NCBI RefSeq assembly: GCF_001426685.1
Contig: NZ_LMFB01000044.1
Location: forward strand, 207,410 to 271,409
Direction of reading: 5' to 3'
DNA length: 64,000 nt
Source of the DNA: Rhizobium sp. Root483D2
GTDB taxonomy: Bacteria > Pseudomonadota > Alphaproteobacteria > Rhizobiales > Rhizobiaceae
A model generated the notes under the pieces. That model ran no database searches. It was not told where the DNA came from and saw only the letters and a program-made list of their open reading frames with translations. Positions 19,646 to 21,735 of this stretch are shown one piece after another. The translations under genes and the position numbers were made by a program. Positions within the stretch are counted from its first letter, which is position 1. The number at the start of each line of letters is the position of its first letter.

Positions 19646-20383
19646 TCAGATCATCGCCATGCCGCCGTTGACGTGGATCGTCTGTCCGGTGACGTATGCC
19701 GCCTCGTTGGAGGCCAGATAAGCGACGGCGGACGCGACTTCGCCGCCGGTTCCCATCCGCTTCATCGGGATGGCGCCCATGATGGCGTCCTTCTGCTTGT
19801 CGTTCAGCTTGCCGGTCATCGCGCTTTCGATAAAGCCCGGCGCCACGCAGTTGACCGTCACGTTGCGGGTGGCGATTTCCTGGGCGAGCGACTTGGAAAA
19901 GCCGATCATGCCGGCCTTGGCCGCACAGTAATTGGCCTGTCCCGGATTGCCGGTGACGCCGACGATCGAGGTGATGTTGATGATGCGGCCATGGCGGCGG
20001 CGCATCATCGGATGCGTCAGCTCGCGGGTCAGCCGGAAGACCGAGGTCAGGTTGACTTCCAGAACCGCGTCCCAGTCCTCGTCGCTCATGCGCACGAACA
20101 GGCCGTCCTTGGTGATCCCGGCATTGTTGACGAGGATATCGACGCCGCCGAGCTCGCTTTCGGCCTTTTCGCCGAGCGCCTTGACGGCAGCGCGGTCGGC
20201 AAGGTTTGCCGGGAACAGATGGACGCGCTCACCGAGCGAATTGGCCAGCTCCTCCAGCTTTTCGACGCGCGTGCCGTGCAGGCCGACAATCGCGCCCTGG
20301 GCATGCAGGATGCGGGCAATCTCTTCGCCAATGCCGCCGGATGCACCGGTAACGAGGGCCTTGCGGCCAGAAAGATCGAACAT
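19646..20383 (-). CDS. fabG: 3-oxoacyl-ACP reductase
   Basis: The 245-residue short-chain dehydrogenase has GASGGIGEEIAR for NADPH binding, NNAG in LVNNAGITKDG and the Ser-Tyr-Lys triad in TSIVGVTGNPGQANYCAAKAG. It reduces 3-oxoacyl-ACP after condensation. AGAGGAAA lies ten bases upstream of the ATG at 20383, which gives the normal start MFDLSGRKALVTG. It lies between fabD (upstream) and acpP (downstream) in the standard order; the gap to fabD is filled by heptamer repeats. Confidence 0.94.
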   Translation of the reverse strand: MFDLSGRKALVTGASGGIGEEIARILHAQGAIVGLHGTRVEKLEELANSLGERVHLFPANLADRAAVKALGEKAESELGGVDILVNNAGITKDGLFVRMSDEDWDAVLEVNLTSVFRLTRELTHPMMRRRHGRIINITSIVGVTGNPGQANYCAAKAGMIGFSKSLAQEIATRNVTVNCVAPGFIESAMTGKLNDKQKDAIMGAIPMKRMGTGGEVASAVAYLASNEAAYVTGQTIHVNGGMAMI

Positions 20384-20418
20384 GGTTGTTTTTCCTCTTT
20401 TTACAGCGAATGGGGCGG

Positions 20419-20548
20419 TAGCGAATAGCGAATAGCGAATAGTAAGTAGCCAGTAGTTGTTAGTGAATAGGACGAGCATTTTGCGGCAGCGCTTTACTAT
20501 TCGCTACTGACTAACTCCTACTTACTACTGACTAATTCCTACTCACTA
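20419..20548. repeat. Phased heptamer arrays (TAGNNNN), inverted pair
   Basis: From 20419 to 20470 the plus strand reads TAG every seven bases (TAGCGAA three times, then TAGTAAG, TAGCCAG, TAGTTGT, TAGTGAA, TAG). From 20493 to 20548 the complement does the same in the opposite orientation, with CTA every seven bases for eight units. A 22-base unique centre separates the arms. In the right arm a 21-bp (three-heptad) unit is repeated at 20505 and 20526 with two differences, and a third degenerate copy runs into the fabD stop codon. Confidence 0.8.
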
Positions 20549-20560
20549 CTCACTCATTTC

Positions 20561-21505
20561 TCACCCCAGCAAAATCTGAATCGCCGCATCAATATCGGCG
20601 GGGGAATTGATGGCGATGCCGGTGACTGTCTTGTCGATGCGGCGGGCGAGGCCGGTCAGGACCTTGCCGGAGCCGATCTCGTAGAGCGTCGTCACGCCGT
20701 TGGCGGCAAACCATTCGACGGTTTCGCGCCAGCGGACCTGACCGGTGACCTGCTCGACCAGAAGTGTGGCGATCTCGCCGGCATCGGTGACGGGGGCTGC
20801 GCGCACATTGGCAATCAGCGGCACGGCCGGATCGTGCTTTGCAACAGTTGCCAGCGCTTCACGCATCGCATCGGCGGCCGGGGCCATCAGGCTGGAATGG
20901 AAGGGGGCGGAGACCGGAAGAAGAATGGCGCGCTTGGCGCCCTTCTCTGTTGCAAGCGCCGCGGCCTTTTCGACGGCTGCCTTTTCGCCTGAGATCACCA
21001 GCTGGCCACCGCCATTGTCATTGGCGATCTGGCAGGAGCCGAGCGCCTGGGCTTGAATGCACACGGCATCCACATCCGAATGCTCCAGCCCGATGATCGC
21101 CGCCATCGCGCCTTTACCAACGGGAACGGCCGCCTGCATGGCATTGCCGCGAATGCGCAGGAGCCGCGCGGTATCGGCGAGCGAAAACGTTCCGGCAGCG
21201 CACAGGGCCGAATATTCGCCGAGCGAATGGCCGGCGACATAGGAGACCTTGGATTTCAGGTCGAGCCCCTTGGATTCCAGAACCCGAAGGGCCGCGATCG
21301 ACACCGCCATCAGCGCCGGCTGGGCGTTCGCCGTCAGCGTCAGCGTTTCTTCCGGGCCGTTCCACATGATATCGGAGAGCTTTTCGCCTAGCGCCTCGTC
21401 CACTTCGGCAAAGACGGCGGCCGCCTGCGGAAAGGCATCTGCCAGGTCCTTGCCCATGCCGAGCGCCTGGCTGCCCTGTCCTGGAAATGTGAATGCGATT
21501 GCCAT
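20561..21505 (-). CDS. fabD: Malonyl-CoA:ACP transacylase
   Basis: The 314-residue enzyme begins MAIAFTFPGQGSQALGMGKD and has the nucleophile serine in VAGHSLGEYSALCAAG and the catalytic histidine in PVSAPFHSSLMAPAADAM. It loads malonyl groups onto AcpP. Either the ATG at 21505 or one six codons upstream (21523) could be the start; the former gives the family N-terminus. It is the first gene of the minus-strand fab cluster, and the heptamer arrays separate it from fabG. Confidence 0.94.
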   Translation of the reverse strand: MAIAFTFPGQGSQALGMGKDLADAFPQAAAVFAEVDEALGEKLSDIMWNGPEETLTLTANAQPALMAVSIAALRVLESKGLDLKSKVSYVAGHSLGEYSALCAAGTFSLADTARLLRIRGNAMQAAVPVGKGAMAAIIGLEHSDVDAVCIQAQALGSCQIANDNGGGQLVISGEKAAVEKAAALATEKGAKRAILLPVSAPFHSSLMAPAADAMREALATVAKHDPAVPLIANVRAAPVTDAGEIATLLVEQVTGQVRWRETVEWFAANGVTTLYEIGSGKVLTGLARRIDKTVTGIAINSPADIDAAIQILLG

Positions 21506-21735
21506 GAGGTGTATCCCCGTCATACGCGCTTGTGCCGCGCCGTTTCATTCCAACCCATTGCCGGCAAACATAAGGCAGGCCGCAGGTTTTTCCTCTCCAT
21601 TCACATTCCTGGGCCGCAAGTCAAGCTTTTGAGGCCTAAAGCGCCTGCCTGTGCACGGCAACCGCTTTTCTCTTGCGCTGCAGCAAACAGGCTCTACATT
21701 CGCCGCCGGACACGTTTTAAGGCATGTTGAGCATC

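Follow-up and report, generated by a model that had tools for sequence, protein, structure and literature searches.

How does the spacer between two bacterial genes come to be filled with two facing arrays of seven-base units, and does such an array stand alone or belong to a wider kind of element? The question is raised by a locus of Rhizobium sp. Root483D2, lying in a stretch of 64,000 nucleotides that was analysed as a whole (the window), where units beginning with TAG run inward from both sides between two genes that a first-pass annotation had called fabD and fabG. Both names fit the Pfam matches of the predicted products, and the parts of the locus are as follows.

19646..20383, minus strand: fabG, Pfam short-chain dehydrogenase/reductase PF13561, start codon 20381-20383
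20384..20560 (177 bp), minus strand: fabD-fabG spacer, from the fabD stop to the fabG ATG, mostly filled by the element
20419-20470, plus strand: left arm, 7 complete TAGNNNN heptads and a final TAG (8 in-phase TAGs)
20471-20496, no strand: centre or loop, 26 bases between the arms
20497-20548, minus strand: right arm, 7 complete TAGNNNN heptads and a final TAG (8 in-phase TAGs)
to 20559, minus strand: extension of the right arm, in which the 21-bp tandem repeat continues in degenerate form
20561..21523, minus strand: fabD, Pfam acyl transferase domain PF00698, with its stop codon (20561-20563) one base from the right arm

The first-pass annotation had counted seven units on one side and eight on the other around a centre of 22 bases; the inverted arrangement stands, while the counts shift a little, to eight in-phase TAGs in each arm and a centre of 26 bases. 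As it had also stated, TAG is constant and the other four bases vary: TAG is found in 14/14 complete units, positions 4, 5 and 7 are variable, and only base 6 is mostly A (12/14). The tandem repeat of 21 bp, or three heptads, that it saw in the right arm covers 20497-20554 with 2.8 copies and 83% matches, and three copies can be placed in register over 20497-20559, so that the repeat comes very near the fabD stop codon but ends one base short of it instead of entering it. For the minus strand of the array, which corresponds to a transcript running from fabD to fabG, the folding energy is -72.7 kcal/mol (z -6.2); for the plus strand it is -59.5 kcal/mol (z -3.8). The Rfam search returned a pair of matches, with E values no higher than 1, which score far under the gathering score and lie outside the array.

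Is such a pattern more than chance? A pattern of five in-phase TAGs occurs eight times in the window, every time inside the fabD-fabG array, and not once in 100 dinucleotide shuffles, so that the period is not at the chance level that the first-pass annotation had considered. In the whole genome of 6.04 Mb (G000), the same pattern gives 40 overlapping matches at five loci, namely fabD-fabG and four others, while a reversed control pattern gives none, and at all five loci the arms lie on opposite strands and face inward. Inverted arrays are present in 14/26 genomes of the genus when searched by an inverted pattern, and in 25/397 genomes of the order when six in-phase TAGs on one arm are required; thus the further loci that the first-pass annotation expected do exist. 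The commonest heptads are TAGCGAA, TAGTGAR, TAGGCAG and TAGGGAR, and four of the 25 array genomes of the order carry quite different ones, TAGGAGG, TAGCTGA (twice) and TAGAGCC. As a separate observation, the long TAGCTGA arrays belong to two genomes of one other genus (G109 and G222) that have no match to the protein family described below and are also matched by the reversed control pattern; they are probably a different repeat family.

To see where these arrays sit, 42 loci whose arms enclose no gene were read in their context, a sample drawn from array-rich genomes in which four sites are entered from both G000 and a second genome of the same species, G009. Thirty-seven of them are two-armed, all facing inward, and five are one-armed. 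The neighbouring genes are convergent in 24 cases, codirectional in 16, divergent in none and unclear in two, against a background of 8 convergent, 40 codirectional and 9 divergent among 57 adjacent gene pairs in the window, and in 53/64 cases a gene ends within 17 bp. Such a preference for gene 3' ends is what would be expected if the arrays were hairpins selected at gene ends as bidirectional terminators or mRNA stabilisers, with heptads as mere building blocks, and hairpins of cyanobacterial heptamer repeats have indeed been suggested to stabilise transcripts (PMC2670836). However, by eye neither arm at fabD-fabG is followed by a stretch of T residues. The length of this spacer falls in two classes among the 26 genomes of the genus, 79-218 bp in 14 and 24-46 bp in 12, and if spacers over 70 bp are counted as filled, the presence of the element requires at least nine gains or losses on the 26-genome tree, no fewer than shuffled labels do (mean 8.9), which argues against strong selection on the fabD-fabG element. 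Together with the strand tests given below, these results make selected gene-end hairpins a quite improbable explanation.

What else, then, could be held in common by these loci? In three genomes of the order (G161, G130 and G254), the arms lie about 380 bp apart and enclose an ORF of the family of 23S rRNA intervening-sequence proteins (IVP). The ORF of G161, of 122 aa, has a sole Pfam match, PF05635 (23S_rRNA_IVP), with E 4.6e-38. When the family was searched in the 397 genomes of the order, it was present in 43, in 40 of them above the curated cut-off, and the distribution follows that of the arrays: 19/25 array genomes carry IVP against 24/372 others (Fisher 8e-16), and in the genus 7/14 array genomes against 0/12 without arrays (p 0.006), numbers in which related genomes are not independent. 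It is to be noted that some array matches in the order are the IVP arms themselves (G130, G161, G254 and G256), and that all four genomes also have matches elsewhere. Among 30 of the IVP loci in the order, a strict finder that asks for three or more TAG units per arm places arms on both sides in 17, on one side in 6 and on neither in 7, and several of those that are armless by this finder show other heptads by eye. Arrays without a gene also occur in genomes without IVP, in 6/25 of the order and 7/14 of the genus; four of the six IVP-less array genomes of the order are those with other heptads, and perhaps are unrelated.

The arms around IVP genes and the free arrays also use a common vocabulary, since the likeness of heptad types between them is 0.573 within a genome and 0.481 between genomes (p 0.0004; 17 genomes used of 18 listed, one having too few heptads, and here, too, related genomes are not independent). 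The element of the window has two of the features by which we define an IVP-associated heptad hairpin: a pair of inward arrays with period 7 whose inward reading is rich in purines, and an IVP gene in the same genome, which in G000 lies at C44:80316-80630 between nuoC and nuoD. The protein of this gene also matches the bAvd-like model of Pfam weakly (E 1.7e-5, under the cut-off), and the IVP family is described as resembling the Avd protein of diversity-generating retroelements (PMC10053308). Its nearest solved relative is 2gsc, XCC0516, which fits the S23p structure from Xanthomonas campestris named in PMC4990558. The dN/dS ratio of IVP genes is 0.06-0.16 in the 6/21 pairs with finite dS, several or most of which are near saturation, and 0.13 in the least saturated pair (dS 0.44); these ratios indicate that the protein is maintained under purifying selection. 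The first-pass reading of the array is thus partly supported, and what it missed is the link to a hairpin family some of whose members carry an IVP gene. Apart from this, one genome (G256, L150) has two more heptad arrays facing each other at 2356-2492, about 460 bp away from those on either side of its IVP gene.

All seven IVP genes of the genus are found between nuoC and nuoD, within heptad arms, and this site tells how a hairpin can lose its gene. The nuoC-nuoD spacer is 53-63 bp in 18/26 genomes, holds an IVP element in seven and is 112 bp in one, G005 (L264), where both arms and the first IVP codons are kept and the remainder of the gene up to the 3' arm is deleted. G007, the sister of G005 on the tree, retains an intact IVP gene, and G005 thus shows one route to a gene-less hairpin; on the tree of 26 genomes, the states of this site need five changes. 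Can the fabD-fabG element be seen as a product of the same route? When 25 centres including that of fabD-fabG were compared with IVP, three exceeded the 95th percentile of shuffled sequences (24.3), and the best score was 28.2 against a shuffled maximum of 30.2. The fabD-fabG centre as an IVP remnant was dropped as a candidate, nothing being clearly above the shuffles; with no remnant standing out in the centres, the descent of the fabD-fabG copy from an IVP element is a putative one. Its 26-base centre recurs in G009 with two differences, and similar centres are found in several other species.

Does the association hold outside the Rhizobiales? A scan for IVP loci in named records yielded at least 561 confirmed loci, of which the best 80 were studied; by record titles, 52 of these are alphaproteobacterial, 14 cyanobacterial and 14 from others, including Acidobacteria, Planctomycetes and Chloroflexota records. 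Over the 160 flanks of these best 80 of at least 561 loci, self-similarity is 0.66 at lag 7 and 0.57 at lag 14, against 0.40 and 0.39 in controls; lag 8 is slightly raised (0.44 against 0.38), and other lags from 3 to 15 stay within about 0.02 of control. If the 95th percentile of 1539 control windows (0.536) is taken as the threshold, both flanks are of period 7 at 59 of the best 80 loci, one at 12 and neither at 9 (63, 10 and 7 when ties are counted). Both flanks are positive at 39/52 alphaproteobacterial, 11/14 cyanobacterial and 9/14 other loci, and neither at 7, 1 and 1, respectively. At the raw 99th percentile (0.808), the numbers for the best 80 become 15 with both, 23 with one and 42 with neither, a percentile that is inflated by those control windows in which another array is present; with controls purged of such loci (99th percentile 0.571), they are 56, 13 and 11. 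The flank statistic is threshold-dependent, which counts against the reading that we favour.

The two flanks of a locus are also inverted copies of each other: among the best 80 of at least 561 loci, the upstream flank aligned to the reverse-complemented downstream flank of the same locus scores 20.2 on average, against 11.3 for other loci, 7.7 for random sequence and 7.9 in the direct orientation. Where both flanks are positive in the best 80, the 5' arm is mostly purine at 59/59 loci and the 3' arm mostly pyrimidine at 58/59. In-phase TAG pairs face inward at 48/80 of these loci and outward at 2/80. Outside the alphaproteobacteria, the heptads of the best 80 are often GGGAGTC, GGTGTAG, GGCGAGC and similar, and of the 14 loci from groups other than alphaproteobacteria and cyanobacteria, 11 lack an in-phase pair of inward TAGs; TAG is not a general defining feature, and what is common is period 7, the inverted layout and the purine-rich inward reading. 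One candidate function was rejected on this ground: a TAG in every seven bases does stop all three frames, yet 32/80 of these best loci of at least 561 are without an in-phase inward TAG pair, and therefore a stop cassette cannot be the general function.

As to the host genes of the best 80, both neighbours are co-oriented with IVP at 51/52 alphaproteobacterial loci, one being not callable, and 17/21 callable non-alphaproteobacterial loci are codirectional with IVP, seven more being not callable; for the latter group, orientation was taken from ORF length in low-G+C loci and from a codon model in G+C-rich ones, with 1/10 training genes (fabG) one base out of frame. The closest match to the IVP of G000 among the best 80 of at least 561 is from Rhizobium leguminosarum (76%), and the nearest nuoD genes among them are in a Rhizobiales and a Shinella record. 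A nuoD motif was also seen in 28/52 alphaproteobacterial loci of the best 80, each of about 4 kb, and nuoC-nuoD is a recurrent site.

If the hairpins were selected as RNA, G-U pairs would be expected to favour the sense strand. No such bias was found, either in the folds of fabD-fabG, where the sense strand folds better than the antisense in only 6/14 genomes, or at the 59 both-flank-positive loci among the best 80 of at least 561, where G-U pairs are alike on the two strands (572/5572 and 570/5562); the sense strand is more stable at 40/59 of the same loci (p 0.007). RNA-level selection through strand-biased G-U pairing was thus rejected as a candidate, and the lack of a sense-strand surplus counts further against selected gene-end hairpins. 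These strand comparisons do not speak for a role as RNA, and the DNA form may matter more than the RNA.

How do the arrays change with time? G000 and G009 are classed as one species, and between them the elements at fabD-fabG and at two further sites (C41-44k and C41-69k) differ by whole heptads in the comparison of unit number between strains that the first-pass annotation had suggested. It is easy to postulate that short inverted repeats at gene ends just grow by replication slips in steps of seven and that IVP has nothing to do with the gene-less arrays. Whole-heptad changes of unit number and the arrays in genomes without IVP agree with such neutral slippage, and it has been proposed that heptamer repeats in general reflect a stretch of 7 nt contacted by the polymerase (PMC4679880). 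It leaves unexplained, however, why IVP genes are flanked by inverted period-7 arrays in several phyla, far above control windows, why the arms face inward both there and at 37/37 two-armed gene-less loci, and why IVP is associated with arrays at the genome level and the two kinds of arms use common heptads. We consider slippage alone unlikely for these reasons.

Changes of another kind are seen at three further sites of the same two genomes. At C16 and C31, neither the centre nor the arms are the same in G000 and G009, the alignments being 96% and 95% identical overall, and at nuoC-nuoD the two genomes have different IVP genes, with 59% amino-acid identity; the alignments of these three replaced sites are 92-96% identical overall. 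C16 had been taken up as a candidate for an empty site within the species, and was rejected when G009 was found to hold a different element there. Orthologous empty sites do exist for elements when the genus is compared, and none of the sites looks like a clean insertion with a duplicated target. Dispersed intergenic hairpins, several per genome, with orthologous empty sites would also be expected of REP or REPIN-like sequences mobilised by a RAYT-type transposase, but the units here are 7 bp long, arrayed in tandem and variable in number, as opposed to fixed palindromes, and the gene inside some copies is PF05635, so that we give this explanation hardly any credence. As an extreme of size, G009 carries at C1:2430400-2435400 (L115), 2416-2712, a very large array with 7 in-phase TAGs on the plus strand followed by 12 and 20 on the minus strand, the two minus-strand blocks being separated by a short break; the G000 ortholog has 7 and 17.

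The same kind of array is found in 23S rRNA. The 23S gene of G000 has an insert in which TAGGAATTAGGCAGTAGGCAGTAG faces CTATTGGCTAAGGCCTACTGGCTATTGCC, both of TAG heptads, at a position that we take to be helix 9. In G009, three 23S genes were found (L297, L304 and L307), all with the same heptad pair at the same place, again of TAG heptads but of other types than in G000, which looks like concerted replacement in rRNA inside one species. The start of 23S could be located in 8/26 genomes of the genus; the heptad insert is in two of the eight, both of this species, and the other six have inserts or short loops with no heptads. By a strict pattern, a heptad insert in 23S was found in 1/397 genomes of the order, again this species, a count in which many genomes may lack an assembled 23S. 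The heptad rRNA copy is thus a local event of this species, and yet it places an array of this type where intervening sequences are classically found. In alphaproteobacterial 23S rRNA, processing that depends on RNase III is ascribed to cuts in the helix-9 insert (PMC6121014, citing Evguenieva-Hackenberg and Klug 2000).

Which known systems are these arrays to be compared with? Intervening sequences of 23S rRNA, such as those of Coxiella and Leptospira and the helix-9 inserts of alphaproteobacteria, have an inverted-repeat stem around a sense ORF of PF05635 type or around a short loop. In PMC4990558, the ORF in rRNA intervening sequences is described as lying in the sense direction, and the Coxiella element as containing an S23p ORF, as being excised by RNase III and as having two or three tandem heptameric repeats (GACAGAT) before the ORF, in a number that depends on the strain; among the published cases compared here, these GACAGAT units are the nearest to ours. 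The element of the window has long-stem terminal inverted repeats as intervening sequences do. It differs in that it lies in a spacer of protein genes, fabD-fabG, instead of 23S rRNA, and has no S23p/IVP ORF in its 26-base centre, although the same genome does have an array in its 23S gene and an IVP ORF at nuoC-nuoD.

Cyanobacterial STRRs are repeats usually of 7 bp and capable of forming hairpins, for example between hupS and hupL (PMC2670836), and the comparison with them made by the first-pass annotation for a non-random inverted array is a just one. The array of the window likewise consists of tandem degenerate heptanucleotides in a spacer, is hairpin-capable, and has its counterpart in the 11/14 cyanobacterial IVP loci with period-7 flanks on both sides among the best 80 of at least 561; it has other heptads and belongs to another phylum than filamentous cyanobacteria. 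To our knowledge, STRRs are restricted to cyanobacteria. No link of STRRs to IVP was found in open-licence PMC papers. The P6b stem of the Nostoc tRNA-Leu intron is also made of degenerate heptads (Class I TDNGATT, Class II NNTGAGT), its length shifts by whole repeats, and one class repeatedly supplants the other; it lies inside a group I intron, and the excerpted text mentions no IVP gene (PMC4476775). In Xanthomonas and Nostoc, GGGAATC and GGGGA(C/T)T are dispersed G-rich heptamers over-represented in non-coding DNA, with inverted pairs commoner in Xanthomonas than in Nostoc, but they are presented as G-quadruplex repeats (PMC4692102), and neither 'four helix bundle' nor 'PF05635' occurs in the text of that paper. 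The TAACTGA repeats of Beggiatoaceae are intergenic heptamers in many copies; they differ in being direct repeats mostly upstream of start codons, with one indirect repeat in 169 sets (PMC4679880). Heptamer repeats were thus already known, separately, from cyanobacteria, Xanthomonas, Beggiatoaceae, the Nostoc tRNA-Leu intron and the Coxiella rRNA element. In open-licence PMC papers, no statement was found that IVP genes are generally linked to heptad arrays in inverted layout, and no named rhizobial family surfaced, as the first-pass annotation had supposed.

From all these, we consider, with a probability of roughly 0.6, that the fabD-fabG array belongs, as a member without a gene, to a dispersed family of heptad-armed hairpins related to rRNA intervening sequences, and that, probably, RNase III cuts the hairpin and IVP helps to maintain or move it. 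The fuller members carry the PF05635 gene (IVP/S23p) in the loop, in the sense of the adjoining host genes, and the known rRNA intervening sequences look like a similar element in another host transcript. At fabD-fabG, the element would be co-transcribed with the two genes and form its long imperfect stem, and RNase III may cut this stem to part the fabD and fabG messages, as with rRNA intervening sequences. Slippage probably lengthens and shortens the arms by whole heptads, recombination through common heptads probably swaps elements at one site, and IVP probably binds the heptad arms and so may aid the persistence or spread of both coding and gene-less copies. It might even be possible, as a tentative extension that we hold at somewhat less than even odds, that heptad hairpins with or without IVP form one bacteria-wide class of mobile elements inside host transcripts. 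IVP, as a relative of Avd, would then work in trans upon the arms; the intervening sequences of rRNA, the STRRs of cyanobacteria and the arrays of rhizobia would be local variants of the class, and gene-less copies such as that at fabD-fabG its miniature derivatives. The link of facing arrays between two fatty-acid genes to scattered hairpins, whose fuller members carry a small gene known chiefly from rRNA insertions, suggests that a little-noticed kind of bacterial genetic element has been overlooked so far.

The origin of rRNA intervening sequences and the role of S23p/IVP are open questions, as put in PMC4990558, and the arrays offer a candidate IVP substrate with a simple repeating motif. 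They also supply, within one species, naturally occurring alleles that differ by presence, absence or replacement of an element, gene-less copies for tests in trans, and one explanation for the heptamer repeats that have been reported separately in several phyla.

A minor observation concerns the fabG start. An in-frame ATG at 20479, inside the array, lengthens the fabG frame by 32 aa through the array (20384-20479, minus strand), and automatic annotation might pick it. The ATG at 20381-20383 is preceded by the ribosome-binding-like AAGAGGAAA and is the likely start, and that at 20479 is probably not a real one.
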